Source: Ruminococcus sp.
GTDB lineage: Bacteria > Bacillota > Clostridia > Oscillospirales > Ruminococcaceae
Assembly (NCBI GenBank): GCA_017513795.1
Contig: JAFXEJ010000086.1
Span: 1 to 33,645, forward strand
Direction: 5' to 3'
Length of the DNA: 33,645 nucleotides
In this document: positions 10,431-17,218 of the stretch, piece after piece
Layout of the letters: each line of letters opens with the position of its first letter
How positions within the stretch are numbered: the stretch's first letter is position 1
Program-made: the position numbers and the translations under genes
The notes under the pieces: generated by a model
The model's database searches: none
What the model saw: only the letters and a program-made list of their open reading frames with translations
What the model was told of the DNA's origin: nothing

Positions 10431-11480
10431 ATGAGAAACTTCGATTATAGTGAACTTGCAAAAAGTTTATGGGACAGCGAAATCATAGGTCTGGTAGCCC
10501 AGATTCACGAATATAAAGGCAGACAGGAGCTTTATCTGAAACAGAAGCCTGCTGAGCTTGACCGCCTTATTGAGATTGCAAAGGTACAAAGTACAGAAGC
10601 TTCAAATGAGATTGAAGGCATACGAACTACAAACACCCGTCTGTTGCAACTTGTAAAAGATAAGACCACTCCTCGTAACCGTGATGAAGAAGAGATTATG
10701 GGATACCGTGATGTGCTGAATACTATTCACGAGAACTTTGAGTATATACCAATAACATCGAATTATATTCTCCAGCTCCACCGTGATCTGTATAAGTATT
10801 CTCATAAAAGCATCGGCGGTACATTCAAGAATTCTCAGAATTATATAAGTGCGACAGATGCGAATGGACGTGAATTCGTATTGTTCACGCCGCTTCCGCC
10901 CTATGAAACTCCTGCTGCTATCGAATCGATATGTGACAGCTATAATCGTATAATATCAACGCAGGATATCGACGCCCTGCTTCTGATACCTGTATTCATC
11001 CACGATTTCCTTTGCATTCACCCTTTCAACGATGGTAATGGTAGAATGAGTCGCTTGCTCACAACTCTATTGCTATACCGTTCAGGCTATGTAATCAGCA
11101 GATATATCTCCCTTGAAAGCAAGATAGCCAAGAACAAGAACCTGTACTATGACGCCTTAGAACAGTGTCAGAAAGGCTGGCACGAAAACGAAGAAGATCC
11201 TGCTCCGTTCATAAAGTACTTACTACAGACTATTCTTGCTGCATACCGTGATTTTGAGGAGCGTGTGGCATTAGTCGATGAAAAGCTGCCTGCAATTGAA
11301 ATGGTACGGCGTGCTGTTTATAATAAAATCGGTAAGTTCACCAAGAGCGAGGTCATGGAGCTTTGCCCTACACTCAGCAAAGCCTCGGTAGAAAACTCTA
11401 TCAAGCAGCTTGTTGAACAGGGACTTCTTTTAAAGCACGGCAGTGGTAGAAGTACTTTTTATACCAGGAGCGATATATAG
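10431..11480 (+). CDS. Fic family protein with C-terminal winged helix (class II)
   Basis: 349 residues. Fic enzymes transfer AMP (or another nucleotide) onto hydroxyl side chains of target proteins. The active-site motif HPFNDGNGRMSR is at about 196-207. An N-terminal inhibitory helix motif [S/T]xxxE[G/N], seen as SNEIEG at about 58-63, places it in class II, which is autoinhibited in cis. The last 70 or so residues form a winged-helix-like module (KIGKFTKSEVMELCPTLSKASVENSIKQL). The start at 10431 follows AAAGGAG; an upstream in-frame ATG overlaps the promoter. Under two operator-like palindromes, so it may be self-regulated. No separate antitoxin gene is seen. Confidence 0.92.
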   Translation: MRNFDYSELAKSLWDSEIIGLVAQIHEYKGRQELYLKQKPAELDRLIEIAKVQSTEASNEIEGIRTTNTRLLQLVKDKTTPRNRDEEEIMGYRDVLNTIHENFEYIPITSNYILQLHRDLYKYSHKSIGGTFKNSQNYISATDANGREFVLFTPLPPYETPAAIESICDSYNRIISTQDIDALLLIPVFIHDFLCIHPFNDGNGRMSRLLTTLLLYRSGYVISRYISLESKIAKNKNLYYDALEQCQKGWHENEEDPAPFIKYLLQTILAAYRDFEERVALVDEKLPAIEMVRRAVYNKIGKFTKSEVMELCPTLSKASVENSIKQLVEQGLLLKHGSGRSTFYTRSDI

Positions 11481-11556: not shown

Positions 11557-12372
11557 TTGATAACGAAACATGAAATATTCACCTTCCTGGAAGACGCAGG
11601 AATAAAACCTGATGACATAGTGACAATTCACTGCTCTTTACGTGCCATCGGCAAAATTGAGAACGGTGCAGACGGCTTGATCGATGCATTCTGCGAGTAC
11701 CTGCATGACGGACTATTTATTGTACCGACGCATACATGGGATAAGGTTTGGAAGGAGTCACCGTATTACGATGTCAGATCGACTGTTCCTGACATTGGAA
11801 CGCTTGCTGAGGTTGCGGCTTTTCGTAAAGACGGGATACGTTCCCTGCACCCGACTCATTCTGTTGCAGTGTTTGGCAAAGGTGCGGCTGATTTTGTCAG
11901 GGGAGAAGAAAAATGTGCATCTCCTGCGCCTATGAGCAGTTGCATCAGCAGACTTTACGAAGCAAACGGAAAAGTCCTCCTCGTTGGTGTCGGACATGAA
12001 CGTAATACATATCTCCATTCAGTGGATGAGCGACTCAGGATTCCGGATAGACTAAATCCAACCCCTTTTGAGATCACAATCGTGGACTACGATGGAAAGA
12101 TTCTGAAATCTCCTCCGTTCCATACGCATTTCACAGCCGCATCAGATACATGTGTTTCAGAATACTATCCCAATTACAAAGAAGCGTTCGAATATACAGG
12201 TGCTGTGACATATTCCAAGCTTGGAAACGCATTAGTGTATGTCTGTGATTGCAGAAAAATGACGGATACTTGCAGAAGAATTTGGGAGAAAGCAGACCGC
12301 GACCTTTGTATCTCGTCGGAGCCGATTCCTGAAGAATTGTATGAAGAAAGTAGCAAAGCAGCTGATGTATAA
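11557..12372 (+). CDS. AAC(3)-family N-acetyltransferase
   Basis: 271 residues, normal for the antibiotic N-acetyltransferase family that acetylates the 3-amino group of aminoglycosides with acetyl-CoA. Family landmarks are VTIHCSLRAIG near 22, LFIVPTHTW near 53, SLHPTHSVAVFGKGA near 95-110, and LLVGVGHERNTYLHSVDE near 140-158. Translation appears to start at a TTG (11557), with AAAGGA 11 bases upstream; no ATG fits in frame. Family members include proteins without a known resistance phenotype, so aminoglycoside resistance is possible but not shown. It lies 76 bases after fic and may be co-transcribed. Confidence 0.88.
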   Translation: MITKHEIFTFLEDAGIKPDDIVTIHCSLRAIGKIENGADGLIDAFCEYLHDGLFIVPTHTWDKVWKESPYYDVRSTVPDIGTLAEVAAFRKDGIRSLHPTHSVAVFGKGAADFVRGEEKCASPAPMSSCISRLYEANGKVLLVGVGHERNTYLHSVDERLRIPDRLNPTPFEITIVDYDGKILKSPPFHTHFTAASDTCVSEYYPNYKEAFEYTGAVTYSKLGNALVYVCDCRKMTDTCRRIWEKADRDLCISSEPIPEELYEESSKAADV

Positions 12373-12386
12373 CAAATCCTGATGTA

Positions 12387-12412
12387 TTTCAATAGCCCGT
12401 AGTCTATTGAAA
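12387..12412. terminator. Inverted repeat after the acetyltransferase gene
   Basis: TTTCAATAG (12387-12395) pairs with CTATTGAAA (12404-12412). No U-run follows. A third CTATTGAAA-like word lies at 12479-12487, before the opposing terminator. Confidence 0.4.
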
Positions 12413-12484
12413 CACAGTAAAACCATTTCACATAAGTGATATTTCCGCTTTTGCAATATTGCAATAATAACGGACACCCTATTG

Positions 12485-12512
12485 AAAAAACGGAGCCGGT
12501 CATGCCGGCTCC
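12485..12512 (-). terminator. Terminator of the amidoligase/recombinase operon
   Basis: On the minus strand GGAGCCGG-CATGA-CCGGCTCC, then GTTTTTT. It lies 5 bases past the recombinase stop codon. Confidence 0.9.
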
Positions 12513-12516
12513 ATTC

Positions 12517-13089
12517 CTATAGTTTGCTCTCGTATTCTCTAATTCTGCGGTAAAAGGTGTTTGCTCGAAGTCCCATCTGTTTCTGAAACTCCACGGCTGT
12601 GATATTCTCGGACTTCCACTGCTCATACAGCTGACCAAACTTCACCCAGTCAATAGGAATAGGCTGTCTGCCCTTATATTTTCCTTGAGCCTTGGCTATA
12701 GCAATTCCCTCACGCTGACGTTGTAAGGTCTGCTCACGTTCAAGCTCGGAGAGAGCGGCAAATATTGACAGAACAAACTGCCCTTGCGGAGTATTGGTAT
12801 CTATATTTTCCTTGCTGCTGACAAGTGTTACTCCTTTGCTTTTAAGCACATCTATTATATTAAGCAAATCCCGTGTTGAACGTCCAAGTCTGCTGATACT
12901 TTCAATATATAAGGTATCGCCCTCTCGGACATAATCAAGCATAGCTTTCAGTTCAGGACGATTAGTATTCTTGCCTGACATTTTTTCTGCAAATACACGC
13001 TCTACTTGATATTGCTCCATTATCGCTTCTTGACGAGCGGTCTCCTGATGTTCCGTTGAAACACGAATATAGCTAATCTTGCTCATCAT
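12517..13089 (-). CDS. Serine recombinase (resolvase/invertase family)
   Basis: 190 residues, the size of small resolvase/invertases. The catalytic serine is in YIRVSTEHQ near residue 10. IESISRLGRSTRDLLNII near 65 carries the conserved arginines. QGQFVLSIFAALSELEREQ near 105 starts the long E helix. A short C-terminal helix-turn-helix (FQKQMGLRANTFYRRIREYE) binds DNA. The ATGATG start at 13089/13086 overlaps the stop of the amidotransferase gene, so it is translated with the operon. It may act as a resolvase, a DNA invertase or a regulator of the carrying element; no obvious inverted sites were seen around it. Confidence 0.92.
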   Translation of the reverse strand: MMSKISYIRVSTEHQETARQEAIMEQYQVERVFAEKMSGKNTNRPELKAMLDYVREGDTLYIESISRLGRSTRDLLNIIDVLKSKGVTLVSSKENIDTNTPQGQFVLSIFAALSELEREQTLQRQREGIAIAKAQGKYKGRQPIPIDWVKFGQLYEQWKSENITAVEFQKQMGLRANTFYRRIREYESKL

Positions 13090-14063
13090 AACACCCCACA
13101 GCATTCCTCATGCACAGCTTCACCGCACATAAACTTGATATCCCTGAGAGCTTCATGAAGCAGATTCGTATCAATAAGCATCTCCTCCACCTCGTCACAA
13201 GTGTATCCCCACTCCAGCAAAAGTTCAACATCCGATGAATCTACCCCGTACATACTGCAATATGCCAGCAAGATTTCTTCTTGTATATTAAAATAAGTAG
13301 AGTAATCGTAATCATACCACGCAGCATATTTTGAACGGTAGAGCTTCGGCTCGAATTCAGCACGTGTAATTTCACCGTTCTTGTTGATACACAAAATATC
13401 ACCCTCATCAGTCTCAACTCGCTCGTATGCAAACTTATGGAATCCGACCTTTTTCAAGGCGTTCTTCATGATGCTTTCTGTTGAAGCGTAAATGTAGATA
13501 CCCAAAGCTTCGAAGTGAATCAAACACATGGGATTGCTTCCTTTGACGATATATAGGGAATTTTTGTCATCGAGCATGGTGAATGTGAAATTTCCCTCAA
13601 CGGTCTCCGCCATATATTTGAGACTGTCGAAGTCAAGTTTCTGCTGAGATTCTATAAGCTGACAAGCGGCATAAGAGTCTGTTTCGATGTGAGTATCAGG
13701 TATAAGCTTGTTCTTGCGTAGTTCTCGGTCATTCCACAAAACACCATTGTGCGCCAGACTCCAGGATGTGCTGCCAGTTTCGCCGTAAAAAGGGTGATTA
13801 TTGTAATTAAGCTTCTGATTTCCTTGAGTTGTAAGTCGGGTATGTCCCATGACTGCCCTTGTTTCTTCGGGAAAGTTGAATTTCATCTTATGAGCAGGCT
13901 TAGGTCTTTTGTATATCGTTACTTTTCCGTCTTTTATGTAGCTGATACCGGCAGCATCCGTGCCACGTTCTTCCGCCGCATTTGCAAGTGCCTGAGTGAG
14001 TTTTTTCAGTACGTTATACGGCACAATTTGTTTATAATCGAGCCAACCAAAAAGTGCACACAT
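13086..14063 (-). CDS. Stand-alone class II glutamine amidotransferase
   Basis: 325 residues. Releases ammonia from glutamine with an N-terminal cysteine nucleophile. Cys2 directly follows the initiator Met. Family elements in order are ERGTDAAGI near 32-40, GHTRLTTQGNQKLNYNNHPF near 73-92, AHNGVLWN near 104, and ETDSYAAC near 127. Unlike GlmS or PurF there is no sugar-isomerase or phosphoribosyl domain: after about 220 residues there is only a charged alpha-helical tail (DVELLLEWGYTCDEVEEML). A partner enzyme must use the ammonia, and the amidoligase two genes upstream is the obvious one. The start follows AAGGAGGA inside the end of the 59-codon gene. Confidence 0.88.
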   Translation of the reverse strand: MCALFGWLDYKQIVPYNVLKKLTQALANAAEERGTDAAGISYIKDGKVTIYKRPKPAHKMKFNFPEETRAVMGHTRLTTQGNQKLNYNNHPFYGETGSTSWSLAHNGVLWNDRELRKNKLIPDTHIETDSYAACQLIESQQKLDFDSLKYMAETVEGNFTFTMLDDKNSLYIVKGSNPMCLIHFEALGIYIYASTESIMKNALKKVGFHKFAYERVETDEGDILCINKNGEITRAEFEPKLYRSKYAAWYDYDYSTYFNIQEEILLAYCSMYGVDSSDVELLLEWGYTCDEVEEMLIDTNLLHEALRDIKFMCGEAVHEECCGVL

Positions 14064-14064
14064 T

Positions 14065-14244
14065 CTAATTCTCCTCCTTGTAATTGACGTCTAAAAGTGC
14101 CTGATTTCCGTCATTTAATACTTCCATTACGACTTCTCCGATTTTGTCAACAAGAACTGTTGCAGCAATCAGCGTAGCTATTTTGAGTACATCACCGACA
14201 GGACTTCCGGTCGGTACAGCCTTGATAAAATCAATTGGTTTCAT
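14065..14244 (-). CDS. 59-residue hydrophobic peptide in the amidoligase operon
   Basis: Short open frame starting MKPIDFIKAVPTGSPVGDVL and ending ALLDVNYKEEN. The centre (about residues 18-45, KIATLIAATVLVDKIGEVVM) is a hydrophobic to amphipathic helix that could lie in or on a membrane. Its ATG has AGGAGGA placed in the last codons of the amidoligase gene, and its own last codons hold the ribosome binding site of the amidotransferase gene. The end-to-start packing on both sides argues that it is translated. Function unknown; it could be a substrate peptide for the amidoligase or a membrane partner. Confidence 0.7.
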   Translation of the reverse strand: MKPIDFIKAVPTGSPVGDVLKIATLIAATVLVDKIGEVVMEVLNDGNQALLDVNYKEEN

Positions 14245-15351
14245 TTACATTTCCTCCTGTATTTCGATTTCTTCATTTATGTAGAGCTTGCGTTCTTTGA
14301 GATACTGAATAAGTTCGGTATCTGTAATATTCGCTACAAATTCCGACCATGAAAGCTTCTGTAATCCTTCGTCGCTCGTTCCAACTGCAATATCACAAAT
14401 TGCGTTCACAAGTTCCAGTGCAGCGATAAGTGTGTTGTATTTCAGTGTGCCTCTGAACATACGGAACTCAATTGTGCTGTAATTGCAAAGATTCACAGCG
14501 GTATATCTTCCATAACTGCCTTTCTTAGCCTTATCCAGTATCTCTCGACCTGTCTTTTCAAAGCCGTAGCGAGCTGCCCAGCGGTTTATGCTGTACTCTG
14601 AACGACGTGAGAATTTCAGCATCTCATTCCAGTGAGTTTCGACAAAGTACAGAATTCGGCTGATAACCTCATCCTGTTCTTCTCTGGAATCACCGAAGTT
14701 GTCACGGTTCACGTGGATATGAAGTCCGCAAGTGTTTGTCTGATGTGAGCGATATCCCAGTGATATAGCCTTTTTCATGATATTTTCCCAGTTCATATTA
14801 TTCTTGTGATATTCAAGGGACATGGGATGTGAAATTATCTCCATGCCGTCATCAAGAGAACCGTCGCCCTTGATATAGACACGCTCACTGTTGCCGTTGG
14901 AATTGGCTATTCTTAGCAGTTCTTCGGCATTATCATCATCTTTGCCGGCACCGTCGATTTCAAGTTCAACTCCGAAATATCGTGAACTATCGCCATAGAA
15001 AATAGGCTCTGGCTTATAGCTATAATCATGGATATTTCGGCATTTATTGACCTCGTCGTGGTAGCAGTCGCTGCAATAATCATAACCATTGAGATGAAAG
15101 CAATCATCAACGTGAACAAGTGCGTCACAATTTTCACAACGGATATAAAAATTATCATAACACGATTCGCAAAGATTTGTATATTCGTCACCGAAGGCAT
15201 CAGAGTCAAAGATAGTCGCTCCGCATCTGTCGCAAGTACAGCAATAGCGTTCTACGCAATCAGAACAGACAACTTGTCCATTGACCATTGAGTAGTCATC
15301 ATCTGTAATTTCTGCTCCACAATGGGAACAAATGATTTTATTTTCTTCCAT
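14245..15351 (-). CDS. Amidoligase (glutamine-synthetase-like fold) with N-terminal zinc-ribbon/LIM-like repeats
   Basis: 368 residues. Residues 1-115 contain three CxxC...CxxC units (CSHCGAEI, CDRCGATI, CENCDALV, each followed by CxxC) resembling LIM or treble-clef zinc fingers. From about 135 the Amidoligase_2-type fold follows: YFGVELEIDG (metal/ATP strand), IKGDGSLDDGMEIISHPM near 180-200, NTCGLHIHVNRDNF near 230 with the HxH pair, and TAVNLCNYSTIEFRMFRGTL near 305. The family is predicted to join an amine to a carboxyl group using ATP. I chose the ATG at 15351, with GGAGGA 7 bases upstream. The amidotransferase in the same operon would supply ammonia. The target is unknown. Confidence 0.85.
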   Translation of the reverse strand: MEENKIICSHCGAEITDDDYSMVNGQVVCSDCVERYCCTCDRCGATIFDSDAFGDEYTNLCESCYDNFYIRCENCDALVHVDDCFHLNGYDYCSDCYHDEVNKCRNIHDYSYKPEPIFYGDSSRYFGVELEIDGAGKDDDNAEELLRIANSNGNSERVYIKGDGSLDDGMEIISHPMSLEYHKNNMNWENIMKKAISLGYRSHQTNTCGLHIHVNRDNFGDSREEQDEVISRILYFVETHWNEMLKFSRRSEYSINRWAARYGFEKTGREILDKAKKGSYGRYTAVNLCNYSTIEFRMFRGTLKYNTLIAALELVNAICDIAVGTSDEGLQKLSWSEFVANITDTELIQYLKERKLYINEEIEIQEEM

Positions 15352-15380
15352 TTTGATTTCCTCCAAAATAACGTAAAATA

Positions 15381-15400
15381 GCCGCTCCCGAAGGAGCGGC
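15381..15400 (-). other. Stable UUCG hairpin between DUF960 and amidoligase genes
   Basis: On the minus strand GCCGCTCC-TTCG-GGAGCGGC followed by TATTTTACGTTATTTT. An 8-bp GC-rich stem with a C(UUCG)G loop. It could be a partial terminator or an RNA-processing block that sets a lower level of the genes downstream. Confidence 0.6.
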
Positions 15401-15407
15401 ATTGTCA

Positions 15408-15692
15408 TTAATATTCTTCTGCAAGCAGCATTGTTGAGTGGTCGCCGTCATCGATTATGTAAATCTTCTCGGCTATCGGCTTTTCTGACGGAATAAGATA
15501 TTCCATTTTATATTCGGGATTTTCTGATGTGTGCGTGATTCTCTGCATTTCACCGAAGGGTTCGAGTTTAAAGACCTGTAAATAGTCTCTTTCAGCAGGC
15601 AATTCATCCACGCAATTCCACAGGAATAACTGCAATTCAAGCGGTATTGCATAATCTACGCCACAAGTCAGATAGCGGTTATTGTTGAACAT
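15408..15692 (-). CDS. DUF960-type small protein
   Basis: 94 residues. The pattern RYLTCGVDYAIPLELQLFLW, then DYLQVFKLEP and NPEYKMEYLI, matches my recollection of DUF960, a family found mainly on Firmicute plasmids and conjugative elements and of unknown function. First gene of the minus-strand operon, with AAAGGAG upstream of its ATG. It is separated from the amidoligase gene by the stable hairpin at 15381-15400. Confidence 0.75.
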   Translation of the reverse strand: MFNNNRYLTCGVDYAIPLELQLFLWNCVDELPAERDYLQVFKLEPFGEMQRITHTSENPEYKMEYLIPSEKPIAEKIYIIDDGDHSTMLLAEEY

Positions 15693-16054: not shown

Positions 16055-16186
16055 GACAAATGTACTGTATAGTAATAATGTCGGACATTCTTGCTTTTAA
16101 CCTGTAATTATATTATATATTAATTATTAAATATATAATATATATCTTATATTGATGCCATATGCGGGTAAAAAAGACAAATGTAC
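16055..16186. other. Candidate origin of transfer (oriT) region
   Basis: A direct repeat GACAAATGTAC at 16055-16065 and 16176-16186 flanks an extremely AT-rich segment (16108-16160, alternating TATA/ATTA with palindromes). Related words AGTAATAATG (16070-16079) and CATTATTG (16189-16196) are in opposite orientation. It lies directly upstream of the ribbon-helix-helix and relaxase genes, where an oriT is usually found. No known nick sequence was recognised. Confidence 0.4.
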
Positions 16187-16224
16187 GTCATTATTGAAAA
16201 TACTATACTATGGAGGTACATCCT

Positions 16225-16455
16225 ATGAAAAAGAAGAAATCCATATGGATCGAAGAAGAAACGATTGCTGATATTGAAAAGGAAGCAAAAGAAAGAGAAT
16301 CCAAGTTTGCGACTATTGCAAATGAAAGATTGAAGCAGCGTGCTGACATACCTACGCCTTATATTTTGGCAAAAACACAGACTATCATAAACTTGTGCAG
16401 AGCAGGTAAAATCGAAGAAGCACAAGAGGAGGAAAATAAACTATGGAAATTTTGA
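16225..16455 (+). CDS. Ribbon-helix-helix protein, mobilisation accessory type
   Basis: 76 residues. KKSIWIEEETIADIEKEAKE followed by ESKFATIANERLKQR is the strand-helix-helix pattern of MobC/TraY-like or antitoxin-like RHH DNA-binding dimers. The start at 16225 follows GGAGG at 16212-16216; the ATG at 16210 has no site. The last 13 bases overlap the next gene, which looks like a relaxase, so an oriT-binding accessory role is more likely than an antitoxin role. Confidence 0.7.
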   Translation: MKKKKSIWIEEETIADIEKEAKERESKFATIANERLKQRADIPTPYILAKTQTIINLCRAGKIEEAQEEENKLWKF

Positions 16456-16997
16456 AAGTATTTACATACGCTGGTTGTTCGGAAGATTACTGTGATCATA
16501 TAATGCCATATCCGGCAAATGAAGACAGTGTTGCAGTCAGAGGATATGGTGTGGATTACAGCAATCCTGAAAACACCAAAAGACAGTTTAAATCTATTGC
16601 AAAGAATTATGGTAATGAAGAGAAAAATCCATTTATTCAGTACATGATGTCGTTGACGAAGAAAACTGCACCTGATGCTGAAACAGCAATGGCAATTAAT
16701 GAGAAATTTATAGAGCCATTGAAAGAAGATCATCAAATTCTTGCTGGAACTCACAAAAAACATACAGCAAGTTCTGAGTACCATAACCACGATTACATTG
16801 GCACAACAAACATCAGAAACGGAAAAATGCTGCATGCAAATAATGAGACTAACTTTGCGATGGCTCAGCGTTTGGCTGATATAACTCAACAGGACGTCTT
16901 GCTTGTCATTGAGAAGAGAAAGGATAATTCCTTAGATATTGACCACGATAAGAAACCTTTTGAAAAGTTATTTAAACCTCATAAAACCAAGGACTAA
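16443..16997 (+). CDS. Short relaxase/mobilisation nuclease-like protein
   Basis: 184 residues. The segment SSEYHNHDYIGTTNIRNGKM (about 110-129) resembles the histidine motif of MobA/VirD2-type relaxases, where a pair of histidines binds the metal and Asn and Gly-Lys follow. The N-terminal part has a relaxase-like AVRGYGVDYSNPENTKRQF stretch and a later PDAETAMAINEKFIEPLKED helix. It stops right after the nuclease core; usual relaxases are 300 or more residues, so this is a minimal or trimmed version. The start overlaps the RHH gene and has GAGGAGG. It would nick a transfer origin on this element, if active. Confidence 0.6.
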   Translation: MEILKVFTYAGCSEDYCDHIMPYPANEDSVAVRGYGVDYSNPENTKRQFKSIAKNYGNEEKNPFIQYMMSLTKKTAPDAETAMAINEKFIEPLKEDHQILAGTHKKHTASSEYHNHDYIGTTNIRNGKMLHANNETNFAMAQRLADITQQDVLLVIEKRKDNSLDIDHDKKPFEKLFKPHKTKD

Positions 16998-17170: not shown

Positions 17171-17218
17171 ATACTTGTAAGTTACTAACTCATAATTCAC
17201 TAATTTGGAGGAGCAGGT

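Follow-up and report, generated by a model that had tools for sequence, protein, structure and literature searches.

In the window, that is, the whole stretch of 33,645 nt of Ruminococcus sp. DNA analysed here, five genes on the minus strand had been described in an earlier note made from the sequence alone. All five are real genes, and the four protein families named in that note were matched by the respective products. The first gene (15408 to 15692) specifies a DUF960 protein of 94 aa (PF06124, 8.1e-27). The second (14245 to 15351) encodes an amidoligase of 368 aa, composed of three C4 zinc modules (residues 8-96) and a GS/GCS-like ligase domain matching PF12224, Amidoligase_2, at 25.5 bits with a cut-off of 22 (residues 169-318, profile positions 75-244 of 245). 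A peptide of 59 aa with one hydrophobic helix is encoded by the third gene (14065 to 14244), which will be referred to as the slot gene, and a stand-alone class II glutamine amidotransferase of 325 aa, with an N-terminal cysteine and a helical-looking C-terminal tail, by the fourth (13086 to 14063; PF13522, 3.6e-10, 40.4 bits versus a cut-off of 27; PF13230, 33.7 versus 23). The last gene (12517 to 13104) codes for a small serine recombinase of 195 aa with a resolvase domain and a short C-terminal part (PF00239, 9.1e-43, over residues 10-143). Its translation may also start at 13089, where the start would overlap the amidotransferase stop as ATGA.

Since GGAGG is found just upstream of 15351 and the N-termini of related proteins align from there, the amidoligase most likely starts at this position and not at 15408. 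With this start, DUF960 would therefore not be packed against the amidoligase. End-to-start packing, previously proposed for all five genes, is found for amidoligase, peptide, amidotransferase and recombinase, but not for DUF960, which is followed by a leader of 56 nt containing a hairpin. Two features had been overlooked in the earlier note: a divergent relaxase gene upstream of the operon and, behind the recombinase gene, a conserved site. The relaxase (16443 to 16997, plus strand) is a short protein of the MobA/VirD2 type (184 aa; PF03432, 5.3e-13), and the small gene ahead of it (16210 to 16455, plus strand), without a family match, is MobC-like by position only. On the minus strand, the recombinase gene is followed by a terminator-like inverted repeat (12489 to 12515) and by a res-like site of 101 bp (12387 to 12487).

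In total, 98 distinct amidoligase loci were found, almost all of them in Ruminococcus, and the window's own genome harbors four copies of the amidoligase/amidotransferase locus. The five-gene arrangement recurs in these 98 loci, far beyond chance, so that the adjacency of the genes is not confined to one strain. Amidotransferase matches were obtained in 36 genomes of the genus, seven of which had matches only at E > 1e-8; these were not counted as copies and are probably other enzymes. For the enzyme trees, 78 of the 98 loci were kept, the others having internal stops or a short amidoligase or amidotransferase; one locus with a single internal stop (L023) was left out of alignment A1.

The enzyme pair and the DUF960 leader

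A class II glutamine amidotransferase adjoins the amidoligase in 95 of the 98 loci, and an iterated profile search revealed the two as neighbours in 72 of 80 viral contigs; they also adjoin in phage Marvin and podovirus ctgrD200. Judged from gene order and conserved residues, the two enzymes are a fixed pair, in line with the earlier note, which had placed them in one pathway, and the gene pair probably makes amide bonds. In the amidotransferase, Cys2, Arg76 and Asn106-Gly107 are invariant and Asp129 is nearly so among 24 diverse sequences; among 78 close sequences, C2 is kept in 77 and R76, N106, G107 and D129 in all. The cysteine directly after Met1 is presumably catalytic, and the arginine, Asn-Gly and aspartate are taken to form the glutamine site.

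The amidoligase matches phrog_16683 (1.3e-103). Its zinc-finger-like repeats, already recognized in the earlier note, correspond to CxxC-x17-CxxC modules, of which there are three, one every 32 residues (C8/11/29/32, C40/43/61/64, C72/75/93/96); every one of these cysteines is conserved in 77 or all of the 78 amidoligases aligned. Eleven positions are invariant in 59 diverse amidoligases (E129, E131, K161, D163, S165, E171, H211, H213, R250, N287, E295), and all of these ligase-type residues, with ExE (129/131) and HxH (211/213) among them, are kept in all 78 close ones. We assume that these positions have the ATP- and metal-binding roles of the residues in GS/GCS-type enzymes. A sequence search of solved structures detected no relative of the catalytic domain, and a profile search of solved structures gave significant matches only to the zinc part and none to the catalytic domain, LIM-type protein-binding fingers being the best match of the zinc modules (2.6e-5). 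For a relative of the amidoligase on a C. difficile plasmid, an RlaP-family protein is encoded beside it and no amidotransferase adjoins, and in the viral locus L165 no amidotransferase is present within 3.2 kb. Therefore, the ligase may also act without this partner.

The pair could act on DNA, RNA or a nucleic-acid-binding protein and shield an incoming element from host defence, the zinc modules binding nucleic acid or protein. The zinc repeats are kept throughout, the unit is located in mobile elements and phages, and defence-like genes, among them a type III restriction-modification system, lie nearby in the window. In addition, DUF960 accompanies SAUGI and DUF1643 in the ccr complex of a staphylococcal cassette-related island, according to the available part of one report (PMC10581047), and another copy in the window's genome, C15, combines a large serine recombinase, DUF960 and DUF1643. 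We nevertheless regard this explanation as unlikely, because the zinc modules are closest to protein-binding fingers, the annotated part of the neighbour clusters contains no recurrent gene for base modification or nucleotide metabolism, and none of four operon proteins (DUF960, amidoligase, amidotransferase, recombinase) was matched by a PADLOC model at E 0.001. A literature search on amidoligases with base modification yielded no paper containing an amidoligase.

In 88 of the 98 loci the amidoligase is preceded by a DUF960 gene, and all four DUF960 genes found in the window's genome lie on the contigs of the four enzyme copies. The leader between the two genes contains a terminator-like GC hairpin of 8 bp with a TTCG loop and a short U-rich tail (15381 to 15400, minus strand). 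Of 77 leaders free of N, 75 contain a hairpin by a loose criterion. After leaders with N or odd spacing had been dropped, 75 were kept for folding, and 64 of them reached z < -2 against dinucleotide shuffles, a measure of stability and not of column covariation; the stems differ and yet pair. RNAalifold, applied to a column alignment of 51 leaders, gave no consensus structure because the stems shift register in such an alignment, and the hairpin had no match in Rfam. DUF960 may be a second conserved protein of the element, the hairpin partly cutting its transcript off from the enzymes.

The slot peptide, the recombinase and its site

The slot between the two enzyme genes is filled in 62 of the 98 loci, in 61 of them with a hydrophobic one-helix peptide, and empty in 32; in one copy of the window's genome a DUF4314 protein occupies it. 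For the 59-aa peptide of the window, no family was detected in Pfam, PHROGs or NCBIfam at E 1. A 17-residue hydropathy of at least 1.6 is reached by 55 of the 61 one-helix peptides. Four types, A to D, were set by patterns made for this analysis, the peptide of the window being of type A. Within types, a coding signal and median dN/dS values of 0.18-0.36 were obtained. Many peptides have acidic C-termini, and for types A, C and D the median net charge following the helix is -3, while type B lacks an acidic tail end. On the amidoligase tree, peptide type changes 25 times versus a minimum of 5, but exchanges between A and B are partly a matter of naming, since the profiles of these two types match each other. 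Shuffling gave a mean of 44 changes, and a value as low as 25 in none of 200 trials; the types are clustered overall and therefore not freely exchanged.

The earlier note had seen the peptide as a possible target of the enzymes. As a ribosomal peptide, its carboxylates, such as those in the acidic tails of types A, C and D, would be amidated to yield a small bacteriocin-like or signalling peptide. Purifying selection within types, a gene directly between both enzymes with its own ribosome-binding site, and the acidic C-termini speak for such a role, which is quite unlikely all the same: a conserved precursor is missing, as the slot is empty in almost a third of the loci with otherwise similar enzymes, and profile searches detected no slot peptide elsewhere within these loci. 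Furthermore, peptide type follows the trees of both enzymes only loosely, the DUF4314 protein and type B do not fit, and no exporter or leader protease is present among the recurrent neighbour clusters, as far as these were annotated. Given the frequent changes of its type compared with the enzymes, the slot peptide appears to be a poor candidate for the sole substrate, and a fixed target is not what these data suggest. It may rather be an exchangeable one-helix membrane companion.

A recombinase gene is present downstream in 49 of 64 scorable loci, specifying small serine (31), tyrosine (17) or large serine (1) enzymes, and absent in 15. Within the window's genome, the same enzyme pair is followed by a small serine recombinase in the window and in copy C78, by a tyrosine recombinase in C76 and by a large serine recombinase in C15. 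Since three classes occur across four copies of one genome, the recombinase is most likely an exchangeable mobility module of the element and not part of the chemistry. This fits element maintenance, one of the options listed in the earlier note, better than its suggestion that the five genes serve one pathway, against which the missing peptides and the hairpin setting DUF960 apart also argue.

Known res sites comprise about 100-120 bp next to the recombinase gene and contain several inverted subsites, one of them a dyad of 26-28 bp. The 101-bp site fits this description. It ends in a 26-bp dyad (12+2+12) and contains a second TTTCAATAG half-site and a TTGCAATATTGCAA palindrome. It aligns without gaps and at equal length in 18 loci, the window and L005 among them; L087, with a truncated recombinase, and L117, with the site inverted, had been left out beforehand. 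The dyad was detected once per source in 33 sources and not at all in a reversed control of 2,116,380 bases.

The recombinase could also be functionally tied to the operon as an invertase, exchanging slot peptides or inverting a promoter. It matches the DNA invertases of phrog_125 (5.9e-63), the site has the opposite orientation in L117, slot types have been exchanged over evolution, and every one of the 31 small-serine loci has its slot filled, while none of 16 scorable no-slot loci has a small serine recombinase (serine against tyrosine, Fisher p 3e-6). However, this association comes down to only one or two independent pairs on the trees and is indistinguishable from shared descent, and seven filled slots are accompanied by a tyrosine integrase. 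With a single dyad per locus there is nothing to invert between, and no copies of the site were found around the slot. An invertase function is consequently considered very unlikely.

A probable mobile element and its possible function

The divergent relaxase is present upstream in 36 of 79 loci, and all eight relatives tested belong to PF03432; a small gene precedes the relaxase in 38 of the 79. Together with a few small genes, the enzyme pair appears to make up the constant centre of a family of mobile elements from rumen bacteria. In some relatives, homology breaks off at 17203 and at about 17131. Because sequences diverge where the res-like site ends, this point was considered as the right boundary but rejected: a promoter-like stretch further on is common to L132, L139 and L108, and a hairpin is found there in several loci. 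A pair of attachment sites flanking the element was not found, the dyad having no second copy in a locus, nor was an empty site among 125 genomes of the genus searched with each flank. No type IV secretion gene was detected among the subset of window ORFs compared with Pfam; an ATPase of 1008 aa resembling HerA/DUF87 is encoded near copy C78.

With moderate confidence, we favour a mobilizable-element core in which a glutamine-dependent amide-forming pair alters a host component, accompanied by a separate recombinase and a companion peptide. The elements, of Ruminococcus flavefaciens and its kin, would be mobilizable and probably integrative. Amidoligase and amidotransferase would form a two-subunit enzyme, the latter releasing ammonia from glutamine via its N-terminal cysteine, the former activating a carboxylate with ATP and metal and coupling this ammonia to it, while the zinc modules may bind substrate or partner. 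As the element's own enzyme, the small serine recombinase would act as a resolvase or integrase on the res-like site that follows its gene; other copies employ a tyrosine integrase or large serine recombinase instead. The altered component would most likely be located at the envelope, and its change may benefit the element, e.g. by excluding competing elements or phages. For phage amidoligase and GATase genes, envelope modification and superinfection exclusion have been suggested in the available parts of two reports (PMC10580990, PMC11318856), both citing Iyer 2009. The window's genome contains a MurT-type protein, which makes it less plausible that the pair compensates for a missing amidation of peptidoglycan glutamate.

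A more specific version, in which the constant enzyme amidates an envelope component, the swapped membrane peptide determines the recognition of particular elements, phages or conjugation partners, DUF960 is a regulator and the hairpin tunes dose, appears improbable as a whole. If exclusion were the function, mobile elements with three recombinase types would share one conserved exclusion core.

Comparison with known systems

Amidoligase systems of the GS-like kind were reportedly predicted by comparative genomics (Iyer et al. 2009, Mol. Biosyst. 5:1636), those of phages being thought to alter the cell wall, and this general prediction covers the enzyme kind described here. Pairs of GS-like amidoligase and amidotransferase are widespread in phages, and their target is only guessed in the literature found. 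In mycobacteriophage Marvin the pair is gp105/gp106, and OM43 phages carry PF12224 and PF13522 genes as a pair, as stated in the available text (PMC10580990). Phage and element pairs have both families adjoining, with equal residues kept. In contrast to the elements, DUF960 is missing in 76 of 80 viral loci, a relaxase or recombinase module of the element's kind is lacking, and the aligned phage amidotransferases often end in CxxC pairs instead of a helical tail. LUZ24-like phages, as described in the accessible part of one paper, differ from the Ruminococcus loci by an HNH gene between the enzymes and an ATP-grasp gene nearby (PMC3890496).

GatD is a class I amidotransferase and MurT a Mur ligase, and neither family is represented in the operon. 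In the sections available, MurT/GatD is described as amidating peptidoglycan (PMC3267633, PMC5871853); the operon pair would resemble it as a two-protein system for glutamine-dependent carboxylate amidation. The ccr complex of staphylococcal cassette elements likewise combines DUF960 with serine recombinases in a mobile element, together with DUF1643 as in copy C15, but the parts of the reports at hand do not mention amidoligase or amidotransferase (PMC10581047, PMC10433870).

PafA is a GS-like ligase that works with the small protein Pup (PMC3511204, PMC7947786), and the operon likewise has a GS-like ligase beside a protein of about 60 residues. The slot peptide, in contrast, is not conserved, has no fixed C-terminus and is often missing.

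Here, the pair is a core part of small mobilizable elements in a culturable rumen genus, often with several copies per genome. With four natural variants in a single genome, loci that have or lack the peptide, and differing recombinases, these elements offer a compact setting for the question of the amidoligase target, and for the recombinase beside the enzymes, which had puzzled the earlier note, element mobility is a simple and likely answer. While the enzyme pair is already known from phages, its mobile-element form, the peptide slot and the hairpin look new.

Operon organization and occurrence

The operon and the site behind it occupy positions 12387-15692 on the minus strand of the window and comprise genes for DUF960, an amidoligase with three zinc modules, a hydrophobic peptide of 59 aa, a stand-alone class II amidotransferase, and a small serine recombinase. 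The earlier note had described all five genes as packed end to start. This holds for amidoligase, peptide, amidotransferase, and recombinase, with each ribosome-binding site located in the preceding gene, but not for DUF960, which is separated by a leader of 56 nt containing a strong hairpin from the amidoligase gene, most likely starting at 15351. Upstream of the operon and divergent to it, a small gene and a gene for a short MobA/VirD2-type relaxase are found. A direct repeat, GACAAATGTAC, present twice ahead of the relaxase gene (16055-16065 and 16176-16186), is a possible oriT or regulator site.

The draft genome that contains the window (2.56 Mb, 163 contigs) is related to Ruminococcus flavefaciens and to similar bacteria of the rumen and gut. 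It harbors four amidoligase/amidotransferase copies, the one in the window and three others designated C78, C76, and C15, the last being incomplete at a contig end. In C76 and C15, DUF960 is located downstream rather than upstream. The amidoligase was detected in 18 of 60 relatives searched. Among 60 genus genomes, 36 gave an amidotransferase match, which was strong (E < 1e-28) in 29. A scan of named genomes revealed at least 424 relatives, of which 80 were kept. All fetched loci together gave 131 rows in an ordered table, and 98 of them were distinct by DNA. Among these 98, the amidotransferase gene is next to the amidoligase gene in 95 and DUF960 is upstream in 88. Of 79 loci examined, 36 carry a divergent relaxase gene upstream; for 61 loci, 2 kb or more of sequence was available on this side, and 35 of them have the gene. 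All eight relaxase relatives tested belong to PF03432. One Ruminococcus-type copy, L142, resides on a contig labelled Alistipes senegalensis (JAMPEF010000110.1), which is likely a binning error.

From 78 leaders, one masked by N, 77 were scored. By a loose criterion applied with no control (7-9 bp paired, one mismatch allowed), a stem is present in 75; in a controlled test on a set of 75 leaders, folding with z < -2 was obtained for 64 (median -3.22). The best stems comprise 36 different sequences, a few not being the GC hairpin, and RNAalifold yielded no consensus structure for the leaders. The hairpin is followed by a U-rich stretch and then by the ribosome-binding site. On the simplest reading of these sequences, it would act as a partial terminator, DUF960 being made in excess of the enzymes.

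Several other genes are present in the surroundings. Thirteen of 79 loci (cluster c9; L111, 4848-5780, and 12 others) have a minus-strand gene for a DUF1848 protein upstream of the operon (match of the cluster representative 1.4e-102). The window itself encodes two proteins with an aminoacyl-tRNA editing domain (PF04073; 9586-10131 and 30355-30927) and, between 10380 and 27687, defence-like neighbours, namely a Fic protein (SoFic model), an ATPase (PDC-S27), a Snf2-type helicase, and a type III restriction-modification pair.

The enzyme pair and the peptide between its genes

An alignment of 59 amidoligases, of which half are of viral origin, has as invariant zinc cysteines C8, C11, C40, C61, C64, C72, and C93 and as invariant ligase residues E129, E131, K161, D163, S165, E171, H211, H213, R250, N287, and E295. 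Among 78 close amidoligases, each of the 12 zinc cysteines is retained in 77 or 78. In 24 amidotransferases, Met1-Cys2, Arg76, and Asn106-Gly107 are invariant. Viral matches were obtained in 276 stretches, and the best 80 were analysed. In 72 of these 80, an amidotransferase gene is located downstream of the amidoligase gene, 71 times within about 150 bp and once at 613 bp. Of the eight viral loci lacking it, seven are positioned near an end of the fetched sequence; L165 is not. A relative on a C. difficile plasmid has an RlaP-family gene in place of the amidotransferase gene, which counts against a strict enzyme pair. The C-terminus of the amidotransferases also differs: the Ruminococcus type has a helical-looking tail (YGVDxxDVELLxxxGYxxDEVEEML type in amidotransferase alignment A3), whereas many viral enzymes end with CxxC pairs.

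The position between the two enzyme genes, the slot, is filled in 62 of the 98 distinct loci (gap of 147-225 bp) and empty in 32 (0-3 bp); the remaining rows are one overlap and three that could not be scored. One slot gene specifies a DUF4314 protein and the other 61 peptides of 47-68 aa, with ORF starts as picked by script. According to our own sorting, these fall into type A (27 peptides), type B (14), type C (15), and type D (5). Median dN/dS within types is low (A, 0.36, 27 pairs; B, 0.20, 3 pairs; C, 0.25, 12 pairs; D, 0.18, 5 pairs), and the peptide genes are therefore coding and under constraint. A stretch of 17 residues with a mean hydropathy of at least 1.6 is present in 55 of 61, as would fit a membrane helix.

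Changes of slot type were counted on the amidoligase tree (78 rows) and compared with means for shuffled labels. Types A, B, and C changed 17, 8, and 10 times (shuffled 20.8, 10.5, and 13.1), type D once (4.9), the empty state seven times (20.1), and all states together 25 times (44.0). On the amidotransferase tree, type A changed 19 times versus 20.9, a value as low being reached in 106 of 500 shuffles. Thus, types A, B, and C appear to be often exchanged, while the distribution of type D and of empty slots follows descent. Such frequent exchange speaks against the peptide being the specific substrate of the enzymes.

Recombinase genes and the res-like site

Within the genome, a small serine recombinase gene is located behind the enzyme genes in the window and in C78, a tyrosine integrase gene in C76, and genes for a large serine recombinase of 518 aa and DUF1643 in C15. 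Of 77 loci scored with a reach of 3 kb, 13 were cut short; the other 64 comprise 31 with a small serine recombinase, 17 with a tyrosine integrase, one with a large serine recombinase, and 15 with none within 3 kb. The recombinase behind the enzyme pair is exchangeable between copies. The 27 other loci in which a close small serine recombinase is present have a median identity to the window of 88% in this protein, versus 71% in the amidoligase and 72% in the amidotransferase. The proposal in the earlier note that the five genes form a single pathway is not supported, since the recombinase class varies between copies and the slot peptide is exchanged or missing.

Behind the small serine recombinase gene, a site of 101 bp was detected, whose length is the same in all 18 loci aligned and which has a 26-bp dyad at its end. 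When the given strand was scanned, each of 33 sources (some overlapping) contained the dyad exactly once, and the reversed control lacked it. By the usual definition of a res site, the 101 bp look like one, and resolution of multimers or cointegrates would therefore be the simplest reading of recombinase action; integration of the element by the same enzyme is conceivable. Most likely, the recombinase serves the mobility of the element and takes no part in the amide chemistry.

An aminoglycoside N-acetyltransferase-family gene (window 11557-12372) terminates just outside the res-like site. In L117, the site (10445-10559) follows the recombinase gene directly and is inverted. L132, L139, and L108 share a promoter-like stretch of the TTGACAAG-GTTTAGAC-TCTGATAT-AT type after the site and otherwise differ from one another. 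In L019, the reading frame of the amidotransferase continues into that of the small serine recombinase (355 codons, no stop before the fetched stretch ends), apparently by natural fusion or deletion.

On the other side of the operon, a 33-bp box (window 17171-17203) follows a perfect TTGACA-17-TATAAT promoter ahead of the ATPase gene. Near-copies are located before or flanking other genes in L243-L253 and downstream of the relaxase gene in L078, L085, L102, L109, and L124. Homology ends at the box end in L247 and begins shortly before the box in L243-L245. With at most three mismatches, the box was found in four of 60 genus genomes and not once in the reversed control. Its placement suggests a breakpoint or recombination node.

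Possible function and relation to known systems

Amidoligases and amidotransferases of these families form amides in an ATP-dependent manner from glutamine-derived ammonia, and judged by its sequence, the window pair may plausibly do the same, as proposed in the earlier note. A target in the envelope would be in keeping with the hydrophobic nature of the companion peptide. A MurT is already encoded in the host genome; if the wall is the target, the usual glutamate position is therefore probably not the one modified. Phage amidoligase and GATase have been proposed to alter the cell wall and to exclude other phages (PMC10580990, PMC11318856, both citing Iyer 2009). Staphylococcal cassette elements likewise contain DUF960 together with serine recombinases (PMC10581047, PMC10433870), which supports an element-linked role. 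The amidoligase/amidotransferase pair itself is already known. In the sections of the literature searched, no mention was found of its combination with DUF960, a relaxase, or a peptide slot, and as far as these sources extend, the mobile-element form is apparently a new version of a known pair.
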